A stretch of 64,000 nt of DNA. Source: a bacterium. Its GTDB lineage: Bacteria; Verrucomicrobiota; Verrucomicrobiia; Limisphaerales; J093. The stretch is taken from assembly GCA_021780105.1 (NCBI GenBank), contig JAJXZJ010000029.1, positions 1 through 64,000 of the forward strand, read 5' to 3'. Within the stretch, counting starts at the first letter, position 1; every line of letters starts with the position of its first letter. The notes beneath the pieces are model-generated. The model had not been told where the DNA came from. It saw only the letters and a list, made by a program, of their open reading frames with translations, and searched no databases. Shown here one piece after another: positions 3,770-26,828 of the stretch. The position numbers and the translations under genes are program-made.

Positions 3770-5599
3770 ATGGCCGAAACCGCGAAACACAATTACGACG
3801 AGAGCAAGATCAAGACGCTGTCCTCGCTGGAGCACATCCGGCTGCGGACCGGCATGTATATCGGCCGCGTCGGCAACGGCTCGCATCCCGACGACGGCTG
3901 CTACATCCTGCTCAAGGAGGTCGTGGACAACGCGATTGACGAATACATCATGGGCTTCGGCCGTGAGGTGCGGATCGAGATCGAGGGCCGTTGCGTGCGC
4001 GTGCGCGATTTCGGCCGCGGCATTCCGCTGGGCAAGGTGGTGGACTGCGTGTCGAAGATCAACACGGGCGCGAAATACAGCGACGACGTGTTCCAGTTCA
4101 GCGTGGGTCTCAACGGCGTGGGCACCAAGGCCGTCAACGCGCTGTCGAAAAGCTTCGTCGTGCGCAGCCACCGCGACGGCGAGTTTGTCGAAGCGGCGTT
4201 CAAGCAGGGAAAACTCAAAGGTGAAAAAAACGGCCGCACGGACGATCCCAACGGCACGTTCATCGAGTTCGAGCCGGACCCGGAGATTTTCAAGGACAGC
4301 CAGTTCCTGCCGGAGCACGTCGAACACCGGCTGCGACACTACAGCTACCTGAACACCGGGCTGAAGTTGATTTACAACGGCAAGACGTTCCAGTCGCGCC
4401 TCGGCCTGCTGGACCTGGTGATGGAGGATTTGCACGGCGACGGGAGTGAACCGATTTACGCGCCGCTGCATTACACCGCGAAGACGCTGGAGTTTTGTTT
4501 CACCCACAGCAACTCGCGCTACGGCGAGACGTTTTATTCGTTCGTCAACGGCCAATACACGAGCGACGGCGGCACGCACTTGAGCGCCTTTCGCGAAGGC
4601 CTGCTCAAGGCCGTCAACGAATACGCCAGCGGCAAATTCGACGGGGACGACGTGCGCGAGGCAATGGTCGGCGCCGTGGCCATCCGGTTGAAGGACCCGG
4701 TATTCGAGTCGCAGACCAAGAACAAGCTCGGCAACACGGAAATCCGCACCGAACTGGTCAACCGCGTCCGCGAGGAATTGCTGCACTTCTTCAACCGCAA
4801 CCGGGAAATCGCCGACCAGATCGTTGCCAAGGCCGAGGACACCAAACAACTGCGCAAGGAGCTGCAGGAGGTCAAAAAACTTGCCCGCGAGCGCGCCAAG
4901 GCGATTTCACTCCGCATTCCGCAGCTCAAGGACTGCAAGCATCATCTCGACAAGAAGCGCGGCAAGGGCGGCGACACGATGATCTTCATCTGCGAAGGCC
5001 AGTCCGCGGCCGGCTCGATCACGAGCTGCCGCGACGTCAACCGCCAGGCGGTGTTCGTGCTCAAAGGCAAGCCGCTGAACGTCTGGGATCTCAAGCGCGA
5101 CGTGGTTTATCGGAACGACGAGATGTTCAATCTCATGCAGGCGCTGAACATCGAGGACAACCTCGACGGTCTGCGCTACGGCAAAGTGATTTTAGCCACC
5201 GACGCGGACGTGGACGGCCTGCACATTCGCAACCTCCTGATCACTTATTTTTTCAAGTTCTTCGAGCAGCTCGTCCACGACGGCCACCTGCACGTGCTGG
5301 AGACGCCGCTGTTCCGCGTCCGGAACAAGGAGCGGACGATTTACTGCTATTCCGAAGCGGAACGCGATGCCGCGGCGAAGTCACTTGGCGGCAAACCAGA
5401 GATCACGCGGTTCAAGGGGCTGGGCGAAATCAGTCCGGCGGAGTTCAAGCAATTCATCGGCGGCGCCATGCGCCTCAGCCAGGTGGAATACGCGCCCAAG
5501 CCTGAAGCGGCGCCGATCCTGACGTTCTACATGGGCAAGAACACGCCGGAGCGGAAGGACTACATCATGGAACACCTGGTCGTGCCGGTGGAGGAATAA
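3770..5599 (+). CDS. parE: Type IIA topoisomerase ATPase subunit (topoisomerase IV subunit B-like)
   Basis: This is the ATP-binding subunit of a GyrB/ParE-type topoisomerase, which powers DNA strand passage for relaxation and decatenation. The 609-residue length and lack of the GyrB insert fit ParE. Visible are the GHKL ATPase motifs (EVVDNAIDEY, RDFGRGIP, GLNGVGTKAVNALS), the transducer region, and the TOPRIM domain (ICEGQSAAGSI, KGKPLNVWD, ATDADVDGLHIRNLL, RFKGLGEI). The usual EGDSA is EGQSA here, but the metal-binding Glu and the DADVDG acidic residues remain. Its likely partner subunit lies 3.2 kb downstream on the same strand, with two antiparallel genes between. Assignment to topo IV rather than gyrase is from length and partner type only. 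Confidence 0.85.
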   Translation: MAETAKHNYDESKIKTLSSLEHIRLRTGMYIGRVGNGSHPDDGCYILLKEVVDNAIDEYIMGFGREVRIEIEGRCVRVRDFGRGIPLGKVVDCVSKINTGAKYSDDVFQFSVGLNGVGTKAVNALSKSFVVRSHRDGEFVEAAFKQGKLKGEKNGRTDDPNGTFIEFEPDPEIFKDSQFLPEHVEHRLRHYSYLNTGLKLIYNGKTFQSRLGLLDLVMEDLHGDGSEPIYAPLHYTAKTLEFCFTHSNSRYGETFYSFVNGQYTSDGGTHLSAFREGLLKAVNEYASGKFDGDDVREAMVGAVAIRLKDPVFESQTKNKLGNTEIRTELVNRVREELLHFFNRNREIADQIVAKAEDTKQLRKELQEVKKLARERAKAISLRIPQLKDCKHHLDKKRGKGGDTMIFICEGQSAAGSITSCRDVNRQAVFVLKGKPLNVWDLKRDVVYRNDEMFNLMQALNIEDNLDGLRYGKVILATDADVDGLHIRNLLITYFFKFFEQLVHDGHLHVLETPLFRVRNKERTIYCYSEAERDAAAKSLGGKPEITRFKGLGEISPAEFKQFIGGAMRLSQVEYAPKPEAAPILTFYMGKNTPERKDYIMEHLVVPVEE

Positions 5600-5665
5600 G
5601 GCCAGGGACTGAACCACCCTGGCGCAGATGGCCGCGCCGGACGGTTCGGTTCCCGCTCAACGCGA

Positions 5666-7165
5666 TCAGACGGAGGCCAGATCGAGAGGCTGGGCGGTCT
5701 CAGACGCTTCACGACCGATCAGTGCCTTGCCATTTTCAGGCGCCGGTTCGCCGGCCAGCAGGCAGCGGACGACGTCCGCCGCGGAGTAGTGGTCGCAACC
5801 GGGCTTGAGGAATCGCGCGACCTGCGCCACGTCGTCCCCGGCGGTCATGAGCGCCGGCTCGACGCCGTCAACGCCGCGCCACTGGCCGAGGCCGACATTG
5901 GCCACCAGCCCGTTGCAAAGGCATTTGCGGCCCTGCGTGTCCGCGATCGCTCCGCCCTTGCGGAGATAATCCTCGACCGGCTCGGCGGGACAGCGATAGC
6001 CCACGGACCCATCTGCCTTGCGATAAAGATGCCGGAGATAACCGAGGTCGCAAATCCGTGTGCGGGCGGCGTATTCCTGCGCGGTTGAGAGCGTTCCCTC
6101 CATTTGCACGACCTTGAACGGGAAGCCGGTGGGCGAGGCCACCGGATCGGTGAACACGCGCGCGGCACCGGCCAGGCTCAACTGGATCACCTCGCGCTTC
6201 AGCTCGGGGCGAAGGCCGGATTCGTCGCAAAAGGCAAACGCGGTGCCGACCTGAATACCGACGGCGCCGAGATTGAGCGCTTCGCTGAGTTTGCCGGGCT
6301 GGCCAAAGGAACCGGCCATCCAGAACGGCAGTCCCAGATCGCGGATCTTGTCCAGTTCCGGCACGTCGCGCGGCCCGTAAACCGGCTCGCCCTCGGCGCT
6401 GAGCTGGAGGAGTCCGCGGGGCGGGGCGTTGTGTCCGCCGGCTGTGTCGCGCTCCACGACGAACCCGTCCACGCGCCCGTTGGATTTCCGGGCCAGCGCC
6501 GTGGCCAGCGTGGCGGACGCGACAATGCCCAGGAAGTGTGGCCGTTGGACCGCGGGCAGTTCGCCGCCGCCAAAGGCCCGCGGATCAAACGTCGCCAAAA
6601 AGTCCTCGCCGGGCAGTGCCTCGCGAACGTCCATCTTCAACTCGGCGGCCGTTCCGTTTGCCAGATGATCCAGCGCTCCCGGAATGGCGCGTGGAATCCC
6701 CGCGCCCATGAGCACGTAATCCACGCCTGCCAGCATGGCGCCATACAAGGACGGCAGCGTCGGAAGCTGGATTTTTTCCAGCAGATTGATGCCGACGAGT
6801 CCGTCGTGACCGTCCTTGGCGAGAAAGACTTCCACAAAATTCGCCACGACCGTCAGTTCCACGAACTCCGCGCCGGGGTGCAGCGTGGGCATCGGCGGGG
6901 CCTTGAATGGCGACCCCGCCGGCTTGCCGCCTGGCACGTAATAGGCCGCCTTCACCCGCGCCGCCACTCCGGGAATGGGAAAGCGGTCCAAGGCATGGCG
7001 CAAATGGCCGGTGGGATCGCCCATTTGCAGGGCGCGGGCCAGAATGATGGCCAGCCCCGTGCCGGAGACGACCCCCAATTGCCCCAGCCGCGACACGGCG
7101 CGGGCCAACGTCCAACCGGACACGGCCACGCCCATCCCGCCCTGAATGATTTTCGGATGTGCCAT
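5666..7165 (-). CDS. Nitronate monooxygenase-like FMN enzyme
   Basis: This resembles the 2-nitropropane dioxygenase/nitronate monooxygenase superfamily, FMN-dependent TIM-barrel enzymes that oxidise alkyl nitronates; related members act in other redox chemistry. The 499-residue protein opens with PKIIQGGMGVAVSG, the family N-terminal FMN motif, and contains DGFVVERDTAGGHNAPPRG, which holds the GGH catalytic histidine motif, then AGSFGQPGKLSEALNLGAVGIQVGTAFAFCDESG, the phosphate-binding part. It is longer than the roughly 320-380 residues usual for the family; a C-terminal part with CLCNGL and VGYRC cysteines makes up the extra length. Start chosen at MAHPKI (7165), dropping 28 track residues. 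It sits antiparallel between the two topoisomerase genes. The substrate cannot be told. Confidence 0.75.
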   Translation of the reverse strand: MAHPKIIQGGMGVAVSGWTLARAVSRLGQLGVVSGTGLAIILARALQMGDPTGHLRHALDRFPIPGVAARVKAAYYVPGGKPAGSPFKAPPMPTLHPGAEFVELTVVANFVEVFLAKDGHDGLVGINLLEKIQLPTLPSLYGAMLAGVDYVLMGAGIPRAIPGALDHLANGTAAELKMDVREALPGEDFLATFDPRAFGGGELPAVQRPHFLGIVASATLATALARKSNGRVDGFVVERDTAGGHNAPPRGLLQLSAEGEPVYGPRDVPELDKIRDLGLPFWMAGSFGQPGKLSEALNLGAVGIQVGTAFAFCDESGLRPELKREVIQLSLAGAARVFTDPVASPTGFPFKVVQMEGTLSTAQEYAARTRICDLGYLRHLYRKADGSVGYRCPAEPVEDYLRKGGAIADTQGRKCLCNGLVANVGLGQWRGVDGVEPALMTAGDDVAQVARFLKPGCDHYSAADVVRCLLAGEPAPENGKALIGREASETAQPLDLASV

Positions 7166-7429
7166 AAAATCGCACCGCATTCCCGCCCTCGCGGAGGAGA
7201 ATGACCGCGACAGGAAAGTCAGGAATCGCCGAAAAGGTGCTCCAGGCACTTGGCGAAGAATCCTTCGGAAACCAACGCGTTTTCCAAAACGTAGCAGAAG
7301 GCGCGGATTCGGAAAGCTCGATTGTTGGAATTCTTCGGCGAGCGGATCGGGCTTGCTTCGGCGCGGCGGGCTGGTTCGTTGGTGCCGGGGGGGTGCCGTG
7401 GAGGCCGGCCGCCGGGGCAGCGACCTGTT

Positions 7430-8647
7430 TCAAAACGCTTGGAAGAGGCGCTGGAGGATGTTCGGGTGGCGGAACAAATGATCCAGTTCGGGCGCGCCGG
7501 GGTGGGTTTTTTCCAGGTCAAATTGCACCAGCAACGTCACGGTTTGGCCGCCGCGTCCGTTGCCGCGGATGGCGTCGAAGCCGTAGCCGTAAGCAAGAAT
7601 GTATTTCGACGCATTGTGGGGCGACCGATAGCCGATCGCCGCGCCGACGCCGGAGTTCCACCCGTTGTCCTGCTGCATTCCCGGCGTGTAGGCCATGACG
7701 CCGGTGAACGCGCCGGGCGTGATCGTCCAGCACTTCTTCGCATCGAACGGAATGGCATACGTGGCGCCCGCGAGCATGAAATTCCGCGCGCTGAGTTCGT
7801 TGTAATAGTAACCCGGCAGCGAAAAGGGAAACTCCGCCGCCAGTGCCAGTTCGCCGCCGAGCCGGTAGGCGCTGAAGCGATCCGGATGAATGCTCGTGCC
7901 GCCGTTGATGCTGAACGTGAGCGTGTGCTGCAATTCCGGCAACGTGTAGGCCAGCGCGGCGCGGCCCCAAAAAAGGTGGACCATGGATTCCACGCGCCGG
8001 TCGCCGGCATAGCCGTAGGCGCCGGAATTCAGCCGGAACTGGCCCTCATACCAAGCCGAAATTTCCAGCGCCAGGTCCGGCGCCAGCAAGGGTTCGATGC
8101 CGCCGTAGCGCAAACCCGCGCGAATCGTGGCCACCGGCTGGTCGCCCGGCAGGACGAAATTGGGCGCCGTCGTGTCATCGCGGTCGTAGAAGGTGTAATG
8201 AAAGCCGCCGCGCAGAAGTCCGTTCAGCGGAATCAACGCCCCGGGGTTGAACAGATGATAAAGCCGCAGCGACGGCCCGGCACCGCTGCCGGTGAAGGAT
8301 TCCTCGTGATACCACTTGCCGCGCCTGACCTCCTCGTAGCTGTCCGCGAAACCGCCGCCAGTGACGCCGATGCCAAGGTCGGTGTTCGGTCCGAGCACGC
8401 CGCGGATGCCCAGTTCGCCGTCCAGATATACCGGCGCGACGGCGAGCCGCAGCGTGAGGTTGGTTTGCACGAAGCCGGGCCGGTTGAGATAATAGAAGCC
8501 ATAGGCCGCGAGCGGCGCGTGGCCGTTGACCGGCTGGCTGTAGCCCAGTTCCAGCAAATCCCGCCGGACCGGGTCAATCTGCGCGCGGGCGGTAAAGACC
8601 GTCACGACAAGGACGACGGCCAGGGCGAGGGTGTGAAATCCCTTCAC
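7430..8647 (-). CDS. Putative exported outer-membrane beta-barrel-like protein of unknown function
   Basis: The predicted 405-residue product begins VKGFHTLALAVVLVVTVFTARAQ, a good signal peptide, if translation starts at the GTG at 8647; the longer track ORF would overlap parC on the other strand. The mature part alternates aromatic and glycine-rich stretches (FYYLNRPGFVQTNLTLRLAVAPVYLDGELGIRG, LFWGRAALAYTLPELQHTLTFSING, LALAAEFPFSLPGYYYNEL), a pattern expected of transmembrane beta strands. I do not recognise a named family. It diverges from parC and has an 11-bp stem hairpin just upstream. Function is not inferred. Confidence 0.6.
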   Translation of the reverse strand: MKGFHTLALAVVLVVTVFTARAQIDPVRRDLLELGYSQPVNGHAPLAAYGFYYLNRPGFVQTNLTLRLAVAPVYLDGELGIRGVLGPNTDLGIGVTGGGFADSYEEVRRGKWYHEESFTGSGAGPSLRLYHLFNPGALIPLNGLLRGGFHYTFYDRDDTTAPNFVLPGDQPVATIRAGLRYGGIEPLLAPDLALEISAWYEGQFRLNSGAYGYAGDRRVESMVHLFWGRAALAYTLPELQHTLTFSINGGTSIHPDRFSAYRLGGELALAAEFPFSLPGYYYNELSARNFMLAGATYAIPFDAKKCWTITPGAFTGVMAYTPGMQQDNGWNSGVGAAIGYRSPHNASKYILAYGYGFDAIRGNGRGGQTVTLLVQFDLEKTHPGAPELDHLFRHPNILQRLFQAF

Positions 8648-8798: not shown

Positions 8799-10949
8799 AT
8801 GGCACCAAAGCGAAAAGACAACCCTGACCAGCTTGATCTGCCGGCAACGCCATCCGAGGCGGCCGGCACCGTGGCAACCACCCGCAACACGAGCGCTATG
8901 GCTCCCGCCGGACCGACACCGAACGGCAACGGCCACACGGAAATCGTCGCCGAGCAAGCCGCGGCGGGGGCGACCGCGCATCACGCGTTCGCACCTGGAA
9001 AGATCGAACTGCCGCTCCACCGCCGCGTGGACCGCGGGTTTCTCGACTACGCCTCCTACGTCATCCGCGACCGCGCCATCCCGCACCTGGCCGACGGCTT
9101 GAAGCCGGTGCAGCGACGCATTCTTTGGGCGTTGCACCGGGGTGATGACGGCCGCTTCACCAAGGTTGCCAACGTCGTCGGCGACACGATGAAATTCCAC
9201 CCGCACGGCGACGCGTCCATCGGGGAAGCGCTGGTGGTGCTGGCGAACAAGCGCTACCTGATCGAGGGCCAGGGCAATTTCGGCAACGTGTTTACCGGCG
9301 ATCCGGCCGCCGCGCCGCGCTACATCGAATGCCGGCTGACCGAACTGGCGCGCACCGAGTTGTTCAACGACGAGATCACGGAGTTCGTGCCCAGCTACGA
9401 CGGCCGCAACCAGGAACCGGTCACGTTTCCCTCCAAGCTGCCGCTCACGCTCATGCTCGGCACCGAGGGCATCGCGGTCGGCCTTTCGGCGCGCATTTTG
9501 CCTCACAATTTTCCGGAGCTGCTCCAGGCGCAGATCGCGATCCTCAAACAGCAGCCCTTCAAATGCCTGCCCGACTTCCCCACCGGCGGCCTCATGGACG
9601 CCCGCGAATACCGCGACGGCGCCGGCAGCGTGAAGGTGCGCGCCAAAATCAAGGTCAAGGACGAGGGCACGGTGGCCATCAAGGAAATCCCGCCCACGAC
9701 CTCGACCGAGTCGCTCATCGCGTCCATCGAGGACGCCGCGCGCAAGGGCAAGCTCAAGGTGAAATCCATCAGCGACTTCACTTCCGAGGAAGTCGAGATC
9801 GAGATCAAATGCCCGGCCGGCGTGGACCCGGAGCAACTGGTGGACGCGCTTTACGCGTTCACCGATTGCGAGGTCACGATTGCCAGCCGGCTCGTCGTCA
9901 TCCGCGACAACCGGCCCGTCGAGCTGACCGTGAGCCAGGTGCTGCGCGCCAACACGGACCAGTTGCTCGACACGTTGAAGCGCGAACTCCAGCTCCAGGA
10001 GCAAAAGCTCCAGGACGAACTCCATTACCGCACGCTGGAGCGCATTTTCATCGAAGAACGCATTTACAAGCGAATCGAACAGTGCAAGACGAATGAGGCG
10101 GTCGTCGCCGCGGTTTACGAGGGCTTCAAGCCGCATTCGAAGGAGCTGGTGCGCGAGTTGACCGACCCGGACGTGGAACGCCTGCTCACCGTCCGCATCC
10201 GGCGGATTTCGCTGTTTGACATCAACCGGCACCGTAAGGAAATGGAGCAGGTCAAAGCCAATCTCGCGGAGACGCGGAAGCACCTGAAGAACCTCGTCAA
10301 ATATGCCATCGGCCACCTCGAAGCGCTGTTGGAGAAATACGGCCCGCTTTATCCGCGCCTGACCAGGAGCAGCCGCCACGACGAGATCGACGCGAAGGAA
10401 GTCGCGTTCAAGGCGTTCAAGGTCGCCTACGACCGCGAGTCCGGTTACCTCGGCTACAAGGTCAACGGCGAGGAGTTCAAGACCGACTGCACGAAGTTCG
10501 ACAAGATTCTCATGGTCTTCAAAGACGGTCGCTACAAGGTCATCGAGCTGCCGGAGAAGCTCTTCGTCGGGCCGGACCTGGAATACTGCGGCCTCCCGGA
10601 TCGCGGACAGGTGTTCACGCTGGTCTATTCCGACCGGGATGCGACCTACCTCAAACGCTTCACCTTCGGCGGGTTCATCCTGGACAAGGACTACTTCTGC
10701 GTGCCCGAAGGCGAGAAGGGCAAGGTGTTGTTCTTCGAGCCGGGCACGCCGGAGACGCTTTACCTCCGCTACAAGCCCGCGCCGCACCAGAAGATCAACC
10801 AGCAAACCTGCGTGCCCTCGGAAGTCGAAGTGAAAGGCGCCAAGACCCGCGGCCGGCAGCTCACGATCAAAGACGTTGGTGCCGTCGGCACCAAGCCCCC
10901 GCGCGGCTGGGATCCCGAAGCCACGACCACGAAGGTGTTGTTTGCGTGA
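8799..10949 (+). CDS. parC: Type IIA topoisomerase cleavage subunit (topoisomerase IV subunit A-like)
   Basis: This is the DNA breakage-reunion subunit that pairs with ParE. The 716-residue protein starts MAPKRKDN at 8799; the track's upstream start would overlap the divergent gene. After a low-complexity N-terminal tail of about 70 residues come the winged-helix motifs RRVDRGFLDYASYVIRDRAIPHLADGLKPVQRRILWAL, GDTMKFHPHGDASIGEALV and the active-site tyrosine in AAPRYIECRLTELA. The coiled-coil tower follows (LQEQKLQDELHYRTLERIF), then a short C-terminal domain without a clear GyrA-box, which favours a topo IV-type role. Bacteroidetes- and Chlamydia-like ParC share this layout. Co-function with the parE above is inferred. 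Confidence 0.87.
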   Translation: MAPKRKDNPDQLDLPATPSEAAGTVATTRNTSAMAPAGPTPNGNGHTEIVAEQAAAGATAHHAFAPGKIELPLHRRVDRGFLDYASYVIRDRAIPHLADGLKPVQRRILWALHRGDDGRFTKVANVVGDTMKFHPHGDASIGEALVVLANKRYLIEGQGNFGNVFTGDPAAAPRYIECRLTELARTELFNDEITEFVPSYDGRNQEPVTFPSKLPLTLMLGTEGIAVGLSARILPHNFPELLQAQIAILKQQPFKCLPDFPTGGLMDAREYRDGAGSVKVRAKIKVKDEGTVAIKEIPPTTSTESLIASIEDAARKGKLKVKSISDFTSEEVEIEIKCPAGVDPEQLVDALYAFTDCEVTIASRLVVIRDNRPVELTVSQVLRANTDQLLDTLKRELQLQEQKLQDELHYRTLERIFIEERIYKRIEQCKTNEAVVAAVYEGFKPHSKELVRELTDPDVERLLTVRIRRISLFDINRHRKEMEQVKANLAETRKHLKNLVKYAIGHLEALLEKYGPLYPRLTRSSRHDEIDAKEVAFKAFKVAYDRESGYLGYKVNGEEFKTDCTKFDKILMVFKDGRYKVIELPEKLFVGPDLEYCGLPDRGQVFTLVYSDRDATYLKRFTFGGFILDKDYFCVPEGEKGKVLFFEPGTPETLYLRYKPAPHQKINQQTCVPSEVEVKGAKTRGRQLTIKDVGAVGTKPPRGWDPEATTTKVLFA

Positions 10950-11089
10950 CGGCGGACGCGGCGGCTTCCTGCCGAAAGCCGCGTCGCCGAACCAAGCCGG
11001 CCGTGACGCTCGTCCGAAGATTGCCGCCACGCCGCGCGCCGTGTCTTTTCCCCGTCGCCAGGCGAAGTCGGCGCCGCTAGGCTCGCTCC

Positions 11090-12007
11090 ATGAAACTTCG
11101 CCGTTGGATTCGTGGCCTGCTCCTGGCCTTCGCGGGAGTCATCCTGGTGCTGGCGCTGCTGGTGGGCGGCGGCTGGTGGTATTTCCATCCCGCGGTCCAG
11201 CGCACCAACGGCATTGTCTATGGCCATCGTGGCGACCGGCCCCTGGCGCTGGACATCATCAAACCCGCCAAACCGAACGGACTCGGCGTGCTCATGCTGG
11301 TGAGCGGCGGCTGGAAATCCGCGCCGCCGGGAAGCTTCGGGGAATGGCTGGCGGCGCCCCTGTTGCGGCACGGCTACACCATCTTCGCCATCTATCACGT
11401 CTCGCAACCGGACGCGACCGTGATGGAGATCATTGCGGACATGCACCGCGCCGTGCGCTTCGTCCGGTTTCACGCGCGGGATTATGGCGTTGACCCGAAC
11501 CGCCTGGGCGTGACCGGCGGCAGCGCCGGCGGACACTTGAGCCTGATGCTGGCCACGCGCGGCGCACCCGGCCCCGCCGAGGCCACCGATCCGGTGGACC
11601 GAGAAAGCAGCGCGGTGCAGGCGGTGGCCGTGTTCTTCCCCGTCACTGATTTGCTGAACCTCGGCCCGTCCACGGAAAACCCCGGCGACGGCGGCCCGCC
11701 AATTCATTTTCACGCGGCGTTTGGTCCGCAATGCACCAACCCCGCCGTCTGGAAGGTCATCGGCCGCGAATCTTCGCCGATTTACCACCTCACCACCAAC
11801 CTGCCGCCGGTGCTGATTTATCATGGCGACGCGGACACGTTGGTGCCGCTCGACCAGTCCGAGCGATTCGCGGCCAAGGCCCATGAACTGGGACGCGAGG
11901 TCAAACTGGTCATCCACCACGGCGGCCGGCACGGCTGGCTGACCATGGTCCTGGACATCCGCCAGTTCGCCCGCTGGTTTGACGAACATCTGCGCGGAGC
12001 AAACTAA
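11090..12007 (+). CDS. Exported alpha/beta-hydrolase (esterase/acetylesterase type)
   Basis: The 305-residue protein has an N-terminal membrane segment (LLLAFAGVILVLALLVGGGWWYF), so it is membrane-anchored or exported. The rest is an alpha/beta-hydrolase: nucleophile elbow GGSAGG (Ser about 145), acid in YHGDADTLVP and catalytic His in GGRHGW. The fold resembles the Aes/BD-FAE carbohydrate-esterase group that deacetylates glycans, though the substrate is unproven. It stands between parC and an S53 peptidase on the same strand, with 140 and 309 bases either side, so it is probably transcribed alone. Confidence 0.8.
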   Translation: MKLRRWIRGLLLAFAGVILVLALLVGGGWWYFHPAVQRTNGIVYGHRGDRPLALDIIKPAKPNGLGVLMLVSGGWKSAPPGSFGEWLAAPLLRHGYTIFAIYHVSQPDATVMEIIADMHRAVRFVRFHARDYGVDPNRLGVTGGSAGGHLSLMLATRGAPGPAEATDPVDRESSAVQAVAVFFPVTDLLNLGPSTENPGDGGPPIHFHAAFGPQCTNPAVWKVIGRESSPIYHLTTNLPPVLIYHGDADTLVPLDQSERFAAKAHELGREVKLVIHHGGRHGWLTMVLDIRQFARWFDEHLRGAN

Positions 12008-17951: not shown

Positions 17952-19298
17952 TCAAAGCGCCTGCGGCTTGCCGTTGATTTCCAACACCACCACACCGGCG
18001 GCCGACGTTGGTGAGGCTGCGGGGACGTGAACGATTTTGCCTTCGGCGGTGGTTTCGACCGTCAGCGGCGTTTTGCCGTCGAGCAGATACGCCTTCTCAA
18101 CGGGGCTGGCCAGCGGGACCACCAGCCGGCCGTCGGCGGGCCAGTCAAAGACTTCGAGATAAATCCTGCCCGGCTTCTGCGTGGCGCGGCCCCAGGCGAG
18201 TTTCGGGAACGGGCTGGCGGTGGTGTCGTAGATCGCCTCGTGGTTGACCTTCATCCACGCCCCGATCTCGGCCAGGCGCTCGACGCTCGGCGCGGGGAAA
18301 AGCCCCTCGCTCGTCGGCCCGATGTTGAGCAGGTAATTGCCGCCCTTGCTGGCGCAGTCAATCAGGTTGCGGATGAGTGTCGTCGAGGATTTCCAATGCT
18401 GGTCGTTTTTGTTGTAGCCCCAGTGGTTGTTCATCGTCATGCAGGACTCCCAATCCACGCCCGGTCCGAAACCGGTCGGCGGGATTTCCTGCTCCGGCGT
18501 GCCGTAGTCGCCGATGCGTTCGTTGCCTTTGTCCATGCCGTTCATGCCGGCGCGGGCCTTGCCGACGCGGTTGTTGATGATGATCTGCGGCTGGAGACTG
18601 CGGACGTAGTTGTAAAGGTCCACGCCGCGGTCGTGCGTCCAGGGCGATTCCCATTCGCCGTCGAACCACAGAATGCCGATCGGCCCGTAGCGCGTGAGGA
18701 GCTCCTTGAGCTGGCCCTTCATGTAGGCGACGTAGCGGTCCATGTCCGGCGGCGTTTTGGGCGCCTTGTCATTCCAGGCGCGGCGCGTTCCCCAGTCCGG
18801 GTGATGCCAGTCCATGATCGAGTAATAAAAACAAAGCTTGATGCCGGCGTCGTGGCAGGCGGCGGCGAGTTCTTTCAGCGGGTCGCGCGGAAACGGCGTG
18901 GACTTGATGCACCAGTCGGTGAGGTCGCTGCGGAACATGCCGAAGCCGTCGTGGTGCTTGCTGGTGATGACGATGTATTTCATGCCGGCGTTCTTGGCCA
19001 TCGCCACCCACGCCTTGGCGTCGAACTTCACCGGATTGAACTGTTGCGCGAACTTCTCGTATTGCGACACCGGCATGTGTGTCTCTTCGAGGAACCACTC
19101 GGCGTAGTTGGTCTTGCCGTTCCACTCGCCGGCGGGCACGGAATAGACGCCCCAGTGGATGAACAGGCCGAAGCGGGCGTCGCGCCACCAGACCATGCGG
19201 GCGTCGTGTTCGGCGGGCGTTTCGGCAAGTGCGGGTGCCACGGTCAGGGCCAGCAGCGCGGCCAGCGCAAACCGGTGAAGGAATCGGGTGAGTTTCAT
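17952..19298 (-). CDS. Secreted alpha-L-fucosidase (GH29)
   Basis: GH29 retaining enzyme removing alpha-linked L-fucose from glycans. The 448-residue protein has a signal peptide (KLTRFLHRFALAALLALTVAPALAE), so it acts outside the cytoplasm. The catalytic TIM-barrel shows the family patterns WWRDARFGLFIHWGVYSVPAGEW, YIVITSKHHDGFGMF, DWHHPDW and the nucleophile Asp about 213 in GPIGILWFDGEWE; NNRVG and GGNYLLNIGPTSEGLFP follow. A small C-terminal beta-sandwich ends at VVVLEINGKPQAL. It heads toward the PIN remnant and restriction cassette; upstream are the SET gene and two further secreted hydrolases on the same strand, suggesting a glycan-use cluster. Confidence 0.94.
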   Translation of the reverse strand: MKLTRFLHRFALAALLALTVAPALAETPAEHDARMVWWRDARFGLFIHWGVYSVPAGEWNGKTNYAEWFLEETHMPVSQYEKFAQQFNPVKFDAKAWVAMAKNAGMKYIVITSKHHDGFGMFRSDLTDWCIKSTPFPRDPLKELAAACHDAGIKLCFYYSIMDWHHPDWGTRRAWNDKAPKTPPDMDRYVAYMKGQLKELLTRYGPIGILWFDGEWESPWTHDRGVDLYNYVRSLQPQIIINNRVGKARAGMNGMDKGNERIGDYGTPEQEIPPTGFGPGVDWESCMTMNNHWGYNKNDQHWKSSTTLIRNLIDCASKGGNYLLNIGPTSEGLFPAPSVERLAEIGAWMKVNHEAIYDTTASPFPKLAWGRATQKPGRIYLEVFDWPADGRLVVPLASPVEKAYLLDGKTPLTVETTAEGKIVHVPAASPTSAAGVVVLEINGKPQAL

Positions 19299-19912: not shown

Positions 19913-21928
19913 TCACGGTCCTTCCTCCTTCCAGATGCAACGATAGTTGAAACGTCGGTTGGGCGCGCTGTCGCCGCTGGTGCAAAGGGAGATCGGGTCT
20001 TTCAGGTCGGTCGGATTGTCGCACCAATGGAAGTCGAATGAGAAATGGTTGCCGGTCAGACCAAGCAGCTTGCGCGGGACAGCGAGTTCCAGCGCGTCGC
20101 CGGTGTACCGATAGTTCAGTCGGGCCACTTCAACCCAGGTTCCGCCGTCCGCACCGGGCGTGAAGCGCTTGAGCGTGGTCGTATGGTCGCTCAGCACGGA
20201 CTGGTTGATGAGGTAGTCGTAGCCGCACCACCCGGTGGCGGGGTTTTGATCGGCATCAATCAGGAGCAGCATCCAATTGTGGCCGGTGTGTGGTGTCAGC
20301 GCGTCTTTCGTCTGGGCATAGAAGAAAACGGAGTTGCGGTCCACGGCCACCTTGCAGGTGATGATGTCATTGCGCCCCGTGTCGTTCGTGTAGTGCAGGC
20401 CGCCGTAGCCGTCGTAGTCGCGGTGGAACGTGTCGCCCGCGGTGTCGCGGTATTCGACTTCGACGCCGGACCAGTCCGCGAAACGGCCGTCTATCTTGAT
20501 CCGGCGCAGACCGCGCAGCCCGGGAACCGGGCGGACGCCCTTGTAGCGCCGGATGTTCCCGGCCATCTGCATGTAGTAATTGTCCGTGTAGCCGCCCTTC
20601 ATCGGCCCGATGGTGCGGTTGAACTCGGCGTTGTATTGATCCACGAAGAAATACGGGCTGTCGCGGCGCATGAACCGGGTCGTGGGCCTGCCGTCCGTCG
20701 GCGCGTATTTGCCGGCCGTCCACTCGTTCCAGTCGTTGAGGTAGAGGAACTGCGGATTGGCTTGGAGGGCTTCGTCCCAGCGCTGCTGGAAATAAATCCC
20801 GTCCCCCTCGGGATGCTCGACCGTGCGCCCCAGCCACGGCACGAACGTCGGCTCGGGCAGATCGAATTCGTTCAAGGGCGGTTCGCCGTTCTCGCGCGTC
20901 CAACTCTTGCCGATAAGGCTCGACGGATGTTGCGCGGGTGTGACGGCGGCTTCCTCCTTCTGGCCGTTGTGCTTCGAGACAAGCTCATCGGGCGTCATTG
21001 CGGCGACGCGTTTGTCGCCCATGTCCAGACCGAAACTCCAGTTGTCTTCCGTGCCGACAAACCGTTTGCCGGCCCACTGATAATAGCCCCACCACATCGT
21101 GCGCCGGGTGAAGAAGCCTTTCACTTCCTTGGTGTAATCCTGGTAGAATTCGTCGGCAAAATCCGGATCGCCGTAATGCGGATTCTTCGGGTCCGCCTTG
21201 GCGGCGGGTTCGTAGTGCGGATTCGGATTCGCCGGGCCTTTGCCGTTGGCGTCCGCGCTGGGGTTGCCGTTGTAGAGCAACAGCGGCTTGCCGTCCCAGT
21301 AGAACCACAGGTCGGCGTATTTTCCCGGCTTGTACACCTTGTCGAACAAGTCCTGCACCACCGTGATGACCGGGCCGTTGAATGCCCAAAAGCAAAACTG
21401 CGGCACCCGGTTGCCCTCCGCCTTCATCTTCTCCATGACGGCGAACAGGACGGCCCATTCGTCCCAGTAACGCACCGCGTTGGTTACATCCATCACCAGC
21501 ACGTCCACGCCCGCGTCGGCGAGCATGGACATGTCCTTGCGGATGACATACTCATCCTTGCTAAAAAAGTAGCCCGCCTCCGGTTCGCCCCAATGGTAAG
21601 AACCTTCCGTCCAGAGCGGATCCTTGGCATCGAGTCGCGCCTTGGGATCTTCGGCGAGAATGCGCGACACGTCCGCGGCATACGGGCGTTTGAGGTTGTG
21701 ATTCGCATCGCTGTGCCACGTGATGTAGAAGATCCCCACGACCCGCCGCTGGTCTGTCTTGACCGGGCCCACTACGGAAGAGGTCGGCAGGTTCCGTCCC
21801 AACGCGTCGTGCCCGACCCACGTGTCGGGAAACAGGTCGCGGTAGGAAGGCGTTCCATCCGCAGACGCCCCGCTCGCCACACTCAGCAGGCAGGCCAGGA
21901 TCAGGGGGATTCGCACGTTGTTTTTCAT
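19913..21928 (-). CDS. Secreted GH71/99-like glycan-active protein with CBM9-like C-terminus
   Basis: The 671-residue protein starts with a signal peptide (MKNNVRIPLILACLLSVASGASAD). Residues about 60-480 look like the GH71/GH99-like TIM-barrel group: VVGIFYITWHSDANHN, DVLVMDVTNAVRYWDEW, FYWDGKPLLLYNG, YLNDWNEWTAGKYAP. Residues about 500-671 (IKIDGRFADWSGVEVEYRDTAGD...MLLLIDADQNPATGWCGYDYLIN) match a CBM9/DOMON-like beta-sandwich, a sugar-binding unit. The substrate is not certain; enzymes of this layout in Verrucomicrobiota and Bacteroidetes occur in polysaccharide-use clusters. It is followed by the SET gene and preceded by a GH39 gene on the same strand. Confidence 0.75.
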   Translation of the reverse strand: MKNNVRIPLILACLLSVASGASADGTPSYRDLFPDTWVGHDALGRNLPTSSVVGPVKTDQRRVVGIFYITWHSDANHNLKRPYAADVSRILAEDPKARLDAKDPLWTEGSYHWGEPEAGYFFSKDEYVIRKDMSMLADAGVDVLVMDVTNAVRYWDEWAVLFAVMEKMKAEGNRVPQFCFWAFNGPVITVVQDLFDKVYKPGKYADLWFYWDGKPLLLYNGNPSADANGKGPANPNPHYEPAAKADPKNPHYGDPDFADEFYQDYTKEVKGFFTRRTMWWGYYQWAGKRFVGTEDNWSFGLDMGDKRVAAMTPDELVSKHNGQKEEAAVTPAQHPSSLIGKSWTRENGEPPLNEFDLPEPTFVPWLGRTVEHPEGDGIYFQQRWDEALQANPQFLYLNDWNEWTAGKYAPTDGRPTTRFMRRDSPYFFVDQYNAEFNRTIGPMKGGYTDNYYMQMAGNIRRYKGVRPVPGLRGLRRIKIDGRFADWSGVEVEYRDTAGDTFHRDYDGYGGLHYTNDTGRNDIITCKVAVDRNSVFFYAQTKDALTPHTGHNWMLLLIDADQNPATGWCGYDYLINQSVLSDHTTTLKRFTPGADGGTWVEVARLNYRYTGDALELAVPRKLLGLTGNHFSFDFHWCDNPTDLKDPISLCTSGDSAPNRRFNYRCIWKEEGP

Positions 21929-22049: not shown

Positions 22050-23519
22050 TTATCTCGTCCTGGCCGCTGACTGCCACTGTAACAAGGCAACGGCGGGGCC
22101 ATCCAGGGTTAATGACATCACACCGTTGCCGGTCGCGTTGGTCGCGTTGCCGATCAGAACGAAATCATGTGTTGCATCCACCAGGCGTGTCGCGACGACA
22201 GTGCGCCCGGACCACGGGAGTTGGCTGACCATGAGCCGGTATTCCGTGTGCGAGCGAGCCAGTTGGCTGATGAGCACCGAGGCTTCGCTGCCGGCTTCGT
22301 TCAAGCCCGCGGCCACCGCCAGTTGCCCCGCCATGCCATCGTGTGTCTCCACGCGGCGAGGTGTGTCGAGCAGTCGGCGAAACGCGAGCAAGGCGTAATA
22401 GTTCTTTTGCGGCACTCCGTTCTCATTGAACAACCCGAATCCGCCCAGTTCACCGTGATAAAGATTGCAGACGTCCACCGGCGCATCCTGCAAATCCAAC
22501 AGCGCTGAGACGATGAACGCGGCGCCAGGCGCTCCCGCCATCGCTTCGTAATACGCCTGCCGGGCTTGTGGCGAACTGCTGCGCGACAGCGGCGCCCAGG
22601 AGCCACCCGGAAGGAAATTCCATTCGTTGAGATGGCTCTCCGTCTTGGTAAATCCGTTCGCATCCAACAGGCTGCGAATGGCCCGGACACGCCGCACCAA
22701 CTCGCGCGGATCGGCGGTGTAACAGTGCCATGAAAAGAAGTCCAACGGCAGGTCCTCCCGGCGGCAGAGCGCGAGGAAGTTCGTGACAAATGCAGTTGGA
22801 CGAAATTCTCCGTCAACGAACTGGCCGCTCGCACCCACGGCCGGACCACCCACTTTCAACCTGGGATAGCGCCTTTTGATGGCGTTCGCGGCGACGCGGT
22901 AGAGGTGAAAGTAGTCTTCGTCCGTTCCGCTCCACATGGCCGGGCGGTTCTCCGGTTCATTCCAGATTTCCCAGTAACGGATGTCGCAGTGAAAACCGTT
23001 CGCCCAGCCCTCATTGTAATGCCGGATGATGCCCAGACAGATGTTGGCCCACTGGGCGGCATCACGCGGTGGATGCGCAAATCGTCTTTTCGAGGTGTGT
23101 TCGATGCTTTCGCCAAGACGGTAAACAATCTGGGCGCCGGTCTGCCGCGTGTCGGCGAGGTATTCGTCCGTGAGGGCAAAGTCGTAGCTGGCAGCCTGAT
23201 CGGAAGCCGCGTTGAAATCCGGAAAAACACAGTGGACGTCCACGACATCAGGATTCGGCCAATGACAATCATGCAGCCGCACGCTGGGCGGTTTGAGCAT
23301 CTGAAGAGCGGCGGTCACGTCAATCAAGCCGCCGGCCGCAAGCGGCCCCTTGTTGATGCCATGCAGGGGTCTCAAGAACCCGTTCGTCCGTGAAAAATCG
23401 AGGAGTAATTCCGTAGGTGCGTCCGCCCCACGCAAGGGCGTTATGGCTGACACGACCGCCATCGCAGCCATGATGGCCCACGCCGCGAAAGTCGAAACGT
23501 TTTCAAATCCCTGTTTCAC
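22050..23519 (-). CDS. Secreted GH39-like beta-xylosidase/glycosidase
   Basis: Retaining glycosidase of clan GH-A. The 489-residue protein has an N-terminal hydrophobic signal (FAAWAIMAAMAVVSAITPLRGA). The barrel shows RPLHGINKGPL, PSVRLHDCHWPNPDVVD, the acid/base Glu in YWEIWNEPENRPAMW, FFSWHCYTADP and the nucleophile Glu in SHLNEWNFLPGG, followed by a small beta-sandwich. GH39 members hydrolyse beta-xylosides, alpha-L-iduronides or other linkages, so the exact substrate is open. It lies upstream of the GH71/99-like gene, 121 bases apart, and both probably serve the same glycan pathway. Confidence 0.87.
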   Translation of the reverse strand: MKQGFENVSTFAAWAIMAAMAVVSAITPLRGADAPTELLLDFSRTNGFLRPLHGINKGPLAAGGLIDVTAALQMLKPPSVRLHDCHWPNPDVVDVHCVFPDFNAASDQAASYDFALTDEYLADTRQTGAQIVYRLGESIEHTSKRRFAHPPRDAAQWANICLGIIRHYNEGWANGFHCDIRYWEIWNEPENRPAMWSGTDEDYFHLYRVAANAIKRRYPRLKVGGPAVGASGQFVDGEFRPTAFVTNFLALCRREDLPLDFFSWHCYTADPRELVRRVRAIRSLLDANGFTKTESHLNEWNFLPGGSWAPLSRSSSPQARQAYYEAMAGAPGAAFIVSALLDLQDAPVDVCNLYHGELGGFGLFNENGVPQKNYYALLAFRRLLDTPRRVETHDGMAGQLAVAAGLNEAGSEASVLISQLARSHTEYRLMVSQLPWSGRTVVATRLVDATHDFVLIGNATNATGNGVMSLTLDGPAVALLQWQSAARTR

Positions 23520-24129: not shown

Positions 24130-24204
24130 TGGAGCCAATGGTCGGGATTGAACCGACGACCTACGGTTTACGAAACCGTTGCTCTGCCACTGAGCTACAT
24201 TGGC
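24130..24204 (-). tRNA. tRNA-Thr (anticodon CGU)
   Basis: The minus strand folds as a complete cloverleaf: acceptor GCCAATG/CATTGGC, D arm GCTC/GAGC, anticodon arm ACGGT-TTCGTAA-ACCGT, T arm GTCGG-TTCAATC-CCGAC, discriminator T and an encoded CCA. The loop TTCGTAA places CGT (CGU) as the anticodon, which reads ACG threonine codons. No integrase or att-like repeat is seen beside it. Confidence 0.96.
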
Positions 24205-24317: not shown

Positions 24318-26828
24318 TCACGGCACTTGAGACACAGGCGCCTTCGCCTTCGGAGCGGCGAGTGGCAGCGGAAGTTCAGCCGTGAAGGCCAGTTCCGGAT
24401 CGCCGCGCCGCTGCAGCGTCAGACAAAGGGTGCGCAGGCTGGGCCTGAGCCGGTGGACGGTGGACTGGCCGTTGCATTCGAGCGTCACCGGCTTGCTGAA
24501 GTCAATCAGCCGGCCGTCGAGAAACACCGCGGCCGACGGGACGTCTGGTGTTGTGGTCACCGTAAGGAGGTTGTCGTGACAGGCCGCGTCAATTTCCCGC
24601 TCCTTGCCGGGGGCATCGGTGTGAAGCCAGAAGAAGTCCGTGACGACCTTGTCGGTCATCAGCCACGTCAGATCGCGCGGCGCGGGGTTGCGCACGGCGG
24701 AATACATTTCGGCAATCTTGTCGCGATCCGGCAGTCCGGTGTGGCCATTGCCGGGAATGATTTGCACGGTCACGGGATAGATGTCGGTGCGGTCGCCGCG
24801 CAACGCCTGCATCGCCGCGGCAAATTTGCGGTCGCGTTCAATGCGGCCATACATCGTGTCCTTCTCGCCGACCATGCAGGTGAAGACGGTGTTGCGGAGT
24901 GTCTTGCCGGTGGTCTCGCCGTCGGTGGGCGCGCCGGCGCTGGCGTGGATGGCGGCAAAAAGGTCCGGTTCTTTCGGGCCGATCGCGAACGCGCCGTAGC
25001 CGCCATGCGAGTAGCCCATGATGAACACCTTGTCCGGGTTCACGCCGCCGAACAGCAGGAACTCGCGGACCAGGTTGGCGACGAGCGGATAAACATAGAC
25101 ATCGTAAAAACCGTTCCACATGTCGTTGGGCGCGCGCAGGGCCACGTAGTAATAGCCGCCAACTTCGGGATGGTCGCGGTAGTAGTGCTGCATGATCTGC
25201 CACTGGCTGTCGTTGACCTCCTTCGGCGCCCCGCCGCCGCCATGCATGGCGATGAACAACGCCCACCCATCCGCCGGGCGGACACCGATGGTCCGAACCG
25301 TGAACGGGCTGACATGGTTGTCAAAAGATGCCCGGTGCGCGGCGAAGTCCTGCGCGAGCACGGCGTGAACCGGCGCGGCGCGGAAGGCGGTCCAGGCGGC
25401 CTGCCGCACCGCGGCTTCATTCCGGAGCAACAGGCGTTCAAACCGCACCGGGAATTTCCAGACTGCCTGCGCGTTGGCGGACGCGGAAAAGAACCGGAGC
25501 AGTTCGGCCTGTAGCGCGGCTCCGTCACGCGGGTCAAGCCGGCGAACCGGCGGCGGCGGCGCGCACACGGCAGCCGGTGTGATCACGGGGGGAATGCCGC
25601 CGAGAAAGATCGTCAGCGCGTCCTGCGCGTTGGTGCCGGTGGTGAAATACTGCCGATGCACGGCGCCGCCGTGCGTGACGGCAATCTGGTAAGTGTGGTG
25701 CTTGGCCAGTTCAAACGGCAGCGCGTCGTTCATGTCCGCCGTTTCGCCGCGACTCTGGCCGGTGAAACGACGCGTGCCGTCCGCGAGGTCGGTCACCACC
25801 ACGTCGGCGGCGACACGGCTGCCCACGGGGCGGTCGAGCACCCTGACCTGCAGCCGCGTGGCGTCGGCGTCGGCGGGCTTGGCCCTGGCGGCGTAGCGGC
25901 CGGTCACGTTCACCGCGTTCACCCAGTCAATCCGCGGCGCCCACACCAGCGGAAAGGCGAGGCCGGTCTTCGCGAAGCTGCTCGCGTAAATCGCGTGTTC
26001 GGGCACGTCCTTCAGGGCGTGCGAGGCGTTGTCCACGAACCAGCCGTGGTCCAGTCCTTTCGGGTCCGGTTCCGCGGCGCCGGCGAAATGCCAGCCGTTG
26101 TCCCAGACCTCCACCCAGGTGTGATTGCCACTGTTGTTCGCCCAGAGTGGCGTGCCGGCGACGCGGGCGGGCACGCCGACAGCGCGGCAGGCGTCCACCA
26201 GCAGGATGGAAAGGCCGGTGCAGGTGGCGACGCCGGTTGCCATTGTTTCAAACGGCCCCTGATCGGGCCGGTGGCGCTGCGTCGAGTAACGCACTTTGAG
26301 CAGACCAAACAGTTTCTGATTCAGCCGTTGAGCCGCTTCGCCTGGCGTCCGACAGTGCTCGATCAGCGGGGCGGCAATCTCGTAGAGGCGTTTCCGCCAG
26401 TTGTCGCGGGGTTCATTCAGGTTGGCGTAAGGCAGCACATCGTTGAAAAACACGCCCTCCGGCAGACGACGCCCCCACGGGACCGCCGCGCGGACCCGGT
26501 AAGCCAGCGCGAGATCGTCCCGCAGGAATTCGGCCGAAAGACGCGTCAGATCGCGCGGCGGCATGTTCGTGAGCAGAAATTGGAGTCCGTCGCGCTGGGC
26601 GGCCGGTGTCTCGTTCAGCGCGCGGACCAGCTCGCTGCGATTGGTGCCCGCCAGCGCCAGCGCCTCCTCCACTGACGCGGGCCACCACGCGGCGGCCGCT
26701 GCAAACCCGCTGCCGGCTGAAATACTTCCTATAACGACTCCCAGCAGAATCCACGTCCTGATGGCAGGAACGCGCCACAATCTTCCCGCCGAACATGCCA
26801 ATCCCAACCGTCGGACACAGATTTTCAT
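24318..26828 (-). CDS. Exported transglutaminase-like / alpha/beta-hydrolase fusion protein
   Basis: This 836-residue protein combines two enzymes. After an N-terminal signal/membrane region, residues about 180-260 hold a transglutaminase-like core: Cys203 in GVATCTGLSILLVDACRAVGVPAR, His in NNSGNHTWVEVWDNGWHF and a following acidic residue. Residues about 540-760 form an esterase resembling poly(hydroxybutyrate) depolymerase/feruloyl-esterase types: LFIAMHGGGGAP, nucleophile Ser607 in FIMGYSHGGYGAFAIG and His in IIPGNGHTGLP. A short beta domain with PSAAVFLDGRL ends the protein. Transglutaminase cores can act as proteases or amide-forming enzymes, so the reaction is unclear. The fusion suggests linked processing of a peptide-polysaccharide or envelope substrate. 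No neighbour in the operon clarifies it. Confidence 0.82.
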   Translation of the reverse strand: MKICVRRLGLACSAGRLWRVPAIRTWILLGVVIGSISAGSGFAAAAAWWPASVEEALALAGTNRSELVRALNETPAAQRDGLQFLLTNMPPRDLTRLSAEFLRDDLALAYRVRAAVPWGRRLPEGVFFNDVLPYANLNEPRDNWRKRLYEIAAPLIEHCRTPGEAAQRLNQKLFGLLKVRYSTQRHRPDQGPFETMATGVATCTGLSILLVDACRAVGVPARVAGTPLWANNSGNHTWVEVWDNGWHFAGAAEPDPKGLDHGWFVDNASHALKDVPEHAIYASSFAKTGLAFPLVWAPRIDWVNAVNVTGRYAARAKPADADATRLQVRVLDRPVGSRVAADVVVTDLADGTRRFTGQSRGETADMNDALPFELAKHHTYQIAVTHGGAVHRQYFTTGTNAQDALTIFLGGIPPVITPAAVCAPPPPVRRLDPRDGAALQAELLRFFSASANAQAVWKFPVRFERLLLRNEAAVRQAAWTAFRAAPVHAVLAQDFAAHRASFDNHVSPFTVRTIGVRPADGWALFIAMHGGGGAPKEVNDSQWQIMQHYYRDHPEVGGYYYVALRAPNDMWNGFYDVYVYPLVANLVREFLLFGGVNPDKVFIMGYSHGGYGAFAIGPKEPDLFAAIHASAGAPTDGETTGKTLRNTVFTCMVGEKDTMYGRIERDRKFAAAMQALRGDRTDIYPVTVQIIPGNGHTGLPDRDKIAEMYSAVRNPAPRDLTWLMTDKVVTDFFWLHTDAPGKEREIDAACHDNLLTVTTTPDVPSAAVFLDGRLIDFSKPVTLECNGQSTVHRLRPSLRTLCLTLQRRGDPELAFTAELPLPLAAPKAKAPVSQVP

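Follow-up and report, generated by a model that had tools for sequence, protein, structure and literature searches.

What might a protein that joins a transglutaminase-like (TG) core to an esterase do outside the cell? The question is raised by an 836-aa open reading frame (ORF) on the minus strand at 24318..26828 of the window, by which we mean the whole 64,000-nucleotide stretch of DNA analysed. A first-pass annotation had read this ORF as an exported fusion of the two enzymes, with both sets of catalytic residues apparently present, that might act on a peptide-linked polymer. Homology and Pfam matches support the fusion, with both domains found by Pfam in the one ORF. The ORF starts with ATG, with GGAGGG just 5' of it, and although long antisense ORFs overlap the same stretch, homology backs the minus-strand protein instead.

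Architecture of the fusion protein and its two candidate active sites

The protein comprises, in order, an N-terminal helical domain, the TG core, an Ig-like domain and an alpha/beta-hydrolase; all parts are encoded on the minus strand. Residues 1-46 (26691..26828) resemble a Sec signal peptide: read by eye, the N-terminus TWILLGVVIGSISAGSGFAAAAA has a basic region, a hydrophobic stretch and an Ala-rich end, and residues 1-44 have low pLDDT in the AF2 model. The protein is thus probably exported, as had been proposed. AF2 secondary structure delimits an all-helical domain at residues 51-145 (26394..26678), with a mean pairwise identity of 48% across the family. It is followed by the TG-like catalytic domain at residues 146-320 (25869..26393; Pfam PF01841, AF2 and Foldseek) and, from AF2 strands, by a beta-sandwich (Ig-like or carboxypeptidase-regulatory-like) domain at residues 321-410 (25599..25868), which by alignment apparently also occurs in stand-alone TG relatives. 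AF2 and identity further define a weakly conserved helical linker domain at residues 430-498 (25335..25541) and, beyond the alpha/beta-hydrolase (serine esterase) domain at residues 499-735 (24624..25334; Pfam, NCBIfam, PDB and Foldseek), a C-terminal beta-rich domain at residues 740-822 (24363..24611). The AF2 model of the whole protein has a mean pLDDT of 77.5 and a pTM of 0.51, with low values at residues 248-254 and 608-635; catalytic positions were not taken from it, since its confidence is poor around both active sites.

The TG domain matches Transglut_core (PF01841) at residues 151-246 with a score of 59.4 bits, above the cut-off of 23 (E-value 4.7e-16), and the alignment ends at profile position 103 of 108. 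A domain-only AF2 model of residues 45-320, for which 31 sequences were used, has high confidence (pLDDT 94.9, pTM 0.93). In this model the putative nucleophile Cys203 (26220..26222) lies at the N-terminus of helix 203-216 and the putative general base His236 (26121..26123) is the first residue of strand 236-242; a Cys at the helix start and a His on the following strand are the canonical positions of the TG fold. The Cys-His-Asp arrangement suggested by the first-pass annotation, which loss of these positions in a model would have contradicted, therefore holds for Cys and His, but the conserved acid is a Glu, not an Asp. By simple strand register Gly250 takes the usual place of the Asp (58 of the 67 TG-domain sequences have Gly here), and the conserved acid follows three residues later at Glu253 (26070..26072; His+17), picked out by conservation. 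Of the 67 sequences, 61 have Glu and 3 have Asp in the Glu253 column, and two of the three exceptions bear a Glu three residues earlier; Asp255, by comparison, is variable among the fusions. Glu253 is thus the likely third catalytic residue, as judged from the alignment. The only cysteines of the TG region are 159, 203 and 214, and zinc-binding CxxC pairs were not found there.

When the TG domain was compared to known structures by Foldseek, the matches included 3isr (a putative cysteine protease), S. pyogenes TglA, BDI_1141, LapG, PeiP, TgpA and PNGase, as well as the animal transglutaminases TG2, TG3 and FXIII, none of them close. The best match by both structure and profile is 3isr.

In the C-terminal half, Pfam detects matches to alpha/beta-hydrolase families (Peptidase_S9, Esterase and DLH) around residues 595-677. 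Among esterases of solved structure, LC-Est1C is nearest in sequence (3wyd; E 6.5e-8, or 7.4e-12 with the family profile), and the closest fold match by Foldseek is LpqC (3d0k). The putative nucleophile Ser607 (25008..25010) lies in a GYSHGG motif that aligns with the nucleophile motif of LC-Est1C; as with Cys203, its position was confirmed in the translated sequence. Conservation and alignment with 3wyd identify Asp657 (24858..24860) as the putative triad acid, conservation identifies His696 (24741..24743) as the putative triad base, and an HGGGG motif is also present. By its motifs the domain thus qualifies as an alpha/beta-hydrolase with a predicted GxSxG, Asp and His triad. Its NCBIfam matches are weak and confined to PHA-depolymerase-like esterases; assignment as a short-chain-length PHA depolymerase (NF050058) was rejected at 36.9 bits against a cut-off of 150. 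Prolyl oligopeptidase was likewise rejected: Peptidase_S9 (PF00326) scored 25.2 against 22.6 bits, yet only profile positions 60-97 of 213 were matched, and Pfam detected no N-terminal beta-propeller in the fusion protein.

Conservation and distribution of the fusion

We searched 58 relatives, scanned genome contigs and examined the ORFs in the fetched loci. The same fusion was present in 43 two-domain ORFs, from Verrucomicrobiota, Planctomycetota, Armatimonadota and Bacteroidota-labelled (Bacteroidia) bins, and the full-length relatives are ~34-60% identical to the window protein. Cys203, His236 and Glu253 are invariant in all 43 fusions, Ser607 in 42/42 that cover the position, and Asp657 and His696 in 40/40 that cover them. 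Mean pairwise identity is 59% for the TG core and 50% for the esterase, compared to 26% for the Ig-like domain and 22% for the linker. Since all six catalytic candidates are invariant wherever covered in the 43 ORFs, both sites look maintained rather than decayed, and the earlier view that both sets of catalytic residues are present is borne out. The TG and esterase parts fall in two adjacent ORFs in L046 and L064, a split that may be due to frameshifts. The fusion was not described in the open-licence literature searched, which included carbohydrate, fucoidan, CBM9, Akkermansia and PUL contexts.

In a sample of 289 Verrucomicrobiota genomes, the TG profile was found in 54 and the esterase profile in 15; the two domains were fused in 9 genomes and apart in 3, and 3 had the esterase only. 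A TG domain was present in 12 of the 15 esterase-bearing genomes compared to 42 of the 274 others (p 1.8e-7, for genomes that are not independent owing to shared ancestry), and this co-occurrence was marginal when the fused cases were left out (p 0.055). The TG domain is commoner alone, as 42 of the 54 TG-bearing genomes lack the esterase. From these counts, the TG domain also exists independently, while this esterase family occurs mostly alongside it. Distances between the TG domains and between the esterase domains were correlated (Mantel rho 0.38; 0 of 999 permutations as high), which reflects co-inheritance and is no proof of joint function. In a tree of 66 TG domains, of which at least two TG-only rows (L049 and L073) lie at contig ends, fused and TG-only forms cluster, with about seven changes between them and modest support. 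Furthermore, the Planctomycetota, Armatimonadota and Bacteroidota-labelled rows are nested in Verrucomicrobial groups, a pattern that transfer combined with gain and loss could explain.

TG domains were also seen in other architectures. A stand-alone, secreted-looking TG-like protein of ~380 aa (L080:6773-7912, minus strand; L081:7559-8707, plus strand) occurs in many sampled genomes of one genus of the same class, and its neighbours in L080 look housekeeping. In L094 (6578-8050, minus strand) the same TG-like domain comes after an Ion_trans (voltage-gated-type ion channel) domain within a 491-aa ORF, a candidate fusion that is possibly a frameshift or assembly error. Two further proteins (L045:3175-5820 and L052:6381-8801, both plus strand) share a homologous ~450-aa N-terminal region (43% identity) before the TG domain and have no esterase; L045 shows a weak Peptidase_C25 match (E 0.0014, below cut-off), and a GH29 gene comes next.

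Genomic context and the CBM9 partner

All genes described next to the window copy lie on the minus strand. They comprise a GH39-family glycosidase gene at 22050..23519 (PF01229, E 1e-19; PDB glucosidase 5z3k, E 1e-37), a GH29 alpha-L-fucosidase gene at 17952..19298 (PF01120, E 2e-98) and, between these two, a 671-aa ORF at 19913..21928 that is possibly GH99-like from a weak Pfam match below cut-off; it has no PDB relative by sequence and may be an undescribed glycosidase. A tRNA-Thr gene at 24130..24204 separates the fusion gene from the glycosidase genes, which suggests that they are transcribed separately, and an operon of the fusion with GH39 and GH29 was for this reason not claimed. A promoter and terminator scan around the window gene performed no better than shuffled sequences.

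In several relatives, by comparison, the fusion gene belongs to an operon-like run of same-strand, nearly gapless genes, some of whose members were assigned by clustering and not by Pfam. One run (L023) reads sulfatase, Gfo/Idh/MocA, GH27-type melibiase, GH2, fusion and 3-keto-disaccharide hydrolase; another (L029) reads GH95, GH2, two Gfo/Idh/MocA, fusion and CBM9; and a third (L055) reads ThuA, two GH2, sulfatase, fusion, CBM9, 3-keto-disaccharide hydrolase and GSDH. The run in L060 includes a GH106-type gene, CBM9, the fusion and GH106. L025 and L026, both from Bacteroidia-labelled bins, have in common a run of ThuA, CBM9, GHL10, Gfo/Idh/MocA, fusion, GH106, GH92 and Gfo/Idh/MocA; their TG domain is nested among Verrucomicrobial sequences, so that either cluster transfer or mis-binning could account for the shared run. 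Among 85 neighbours scanned at fusion loci there were only 7 CBM9, 6 sulfatase and 5 Gfo/Idh/MocA genes; at many fusion loci the neighbours were ordinary, and sulfatases and GHs are frequent in such genomes generally. The context in several relatives, with its CBM9 partner and its GH and sulfatase runs, points to a polymer-degradation setting. Verrucomicrobiota have been reported as specialists on sulfated fucose and rhamnose polymers (PMC8857213), and the neighbouring enzymes at these loci fit such polymers.

The strongest functional link found is to CBM9, by adjacency or fusion. In six loci (L022, L029, L054 from G031, L055 from G033, L058 from G045 and L060 from G047) the next gene downstream of the fusion, on the same strand, encodes a CBM9-like protein of ~320 aa; the one in L055 spans 10339-11310. 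Such a gene sits immediately upstream of a TG-only gene in L041 and three genes ahead of the fusion in L025/L026; the CBM9 identity rests on Pfam in L022, L025, L041, L054 and L055 and on strong similarity in the other loci. Moreover, in eight relatives (L030, L031, L034, L035, L036, L044, L048 and L068), seven of which are planctomycete bins, the protein itself begins with a homologous CBM9 module, fused N-terminally. CBM9_1 genes are scarce, with 1-6 per genome in eight genomes, and the copy next to the fusion is the sole one found in G033 and G045. Pfam finds no CBM9 module in the window protein, and no CBM9 gene adjoins the window copy; the nearest CBM9 homologue of its genome lies on another contig, with 41-51% identity in pieces. 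Elsewhere in the same genome (L078:3925-8607, contig C28), a CBM9-like ORF (6466-8607, minus strand) sits beside an 838-aa ORF (3925-6441, plus strand) that was identified as esterase-like by eye from motifs, with an MFS-like transporter also there; this is possibly a parallel CBM9-esterase pairing.

Proposed function, alternatives and relation to known systems

We propose, with a probability of roughly one half, that the fusion is exported and serves glycopolymer catabolism as an accessory hydrolase with two active sites, a thiol amidase or peptidase combined with a serine esterase. The TG-like domain would act as a Cys-His-Glu thiol hydrolase that cuts an amide bond (peptide, isopeptide or N-acyl), and the C-terminal alpha/beta-hydrolase, kin to LC-Est1C, LpqC, PHB-depolymerase and CE1-type enzymes, would act as a Ser-Asp-His esterase that takes off an ester decoration or cross-link. 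The CBM9-like module, fused in Planctomycetes or encoded next door in several Verrucomicrobia, would deliver the enzyme to its polymer, presumed to be a complex glycopolymer, often rich in fucose or rhamnose, from which decorations or cross-links are stripped; nearby glycosidases, sulfatases and 3-keto-glycoside enzymes would then digest the exposed chain. We infer the same role for the window copy. Against this catabolic reading, many neighbours are ordinary genes, no CBM9 gene adjoins the window copy, a tRNA gene separates that copy from the glycosidases, and stand-alone TG copies can sit among housekeeping genes. A more specific version is tentative: that CBM9 targeting, a Cys-His-Glu thiol amidase and a serine esterase form a three-part system that opens amide- and ester-linked cross-links in complex glycopolymers, often sulfated and rich in fucose or rhamnose, and so prepares them for glycosidases and 3-keto-glycoside enzymes. 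Of the earlier suggestion that the protein strips a peptide-linked polymer outside the cell, the polymer-degradation setting stands, but the peptide part was a guess, and the loci point to glycopolymers.

Other roles are less probable. The protein might serve cell-envelope maintenance: the TG domain would trim surface proteins or an envelope polymer of its own cell, the esterase would de-acylate that polymer, and the glycosidase context would be incidental. TG domains with the same Cys and His do occur alone, at one copy per genome, in a genus of the same class with genomes of 2.2-3.5 Mb (G170, G078 and others), among genes that, read by eye, look folD-like, FabI-like and Dus-like, and the Foldseek matches include PeiP, a pseudomurein endoisopeptidase, and TgpA. 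However, fusion or adjacency to CBM9 and the GH/sulfatase runs better suit an accessory catabolic gene, and the fusion is patchy (9/289 sampled genomes) with phyla intermixed on the tree, which makes an envelope role unlikely. It is still less likely that the TG domain is a transamidase or acyltransferase that cross-links proteins or tethers the enzyme or its CBM9 partner to the surface: the fold superfamily is shared with cross-linking transglutaminases, and TG2, TG3 and FXIII are among the Foldseek matches, but the best structural and profile match, 3isr, is annotated as a putative cysteine protease, and Transglut_core is the only TG domain found by Pfam, which did not detect the accessory N- and C-terminal domains of animal transglutaminases. 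Moreover, bacterial TG-like proteins of known function are mostly hydrolases, which also counts against a transamidase.

We consider it improbable, slightly more so than a transamidase, that the TG domain serves for binding or as a scaffold, without catalysis, and that the esterase is the sole enzyme. The canonical Asp is absent as such and the Pfam match stops five positions short of the profile end, at 103 of 108; yet Cys and His are invariant in the 43 fusions and in aligned stand-alone relatives, and the acid is kept as Glu or Asp. Least probable is a glycan-peptide amidase, in which a PNGase-like TG domain would free N-glycans for trimming by nearby GH29, GH92 and GH2 enzymes. GH29 does lie near the window copy and GH92 in L025, and the PNGase structures 2f4m and 3esw appear among the lower Foldseek matches, but their rank is low, other loci have rhamnosidases and sulfatases instead, and membership of the PNGase family was rejected because the TG region has no CxxC zinc pairs.

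Verrucomicrobiota and Planctomycetota play a major part in the breakdown of recalcitrant, decorated polysaccharides. As an exported accessory hydrolase, the fusion would be an assayable candidate for a polymer-unlocking step in these phyla; it is linked to CBM9 and, in several relatives, also to rhamnosidase, fucosidase and sulfatase genes. If the proposal is true, a Cys-His-Glu variant joins the transglutaminase-like fold and the uncharacterised stand-alone relatives in other Verrucomicrobiota gain a context. Both component folds were already known; the novelty lies in the joining of TG and esterase, in the CBM9 link and in Glu as the acid.

Compared to the TG-like superfamily (PF01841), whose nearest structure is 3isr of Cytophaga hutchinsonii, the fusion has the same core fold and Cys/His placement but differs in the Glu at His+17, its own N-terminal helical domain and the fused esterase; its TG domain is only 20% identical to 3isr over 132 columns. 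Peptide:N-glycanase (NGLY1/Png1) shares the TG fold and a Cys-His-acid set, and the acid of Png1 presumably also lies 17 residues after the His, whereas the fusion lacks the zinc CxxC, has Glu as its acid and matches these structures at low rank. With LC-Est1C (3wyd), LpqC (3d0k) and the PHB-depolymerase/CE1-type esterases it has in common an alpha/beta-hydrolase with GxSxG, Asp and His, but it falls far below the PHA-depolymerase NCBIfam cut-offs, carries HGGGG and has its esterase as the C-terminal part of a two-enzyme protein. The CE1-CBM-type multidomain carbohydrate esterases likewise join an esterase to a CBM, or place the two side by side, in polysaccharide loci; in contrast to these, the second catalytic domain of the fusion is a TG-like thiol enzyme by homology, and we know of no described carbohydrate esterase with such a domain.
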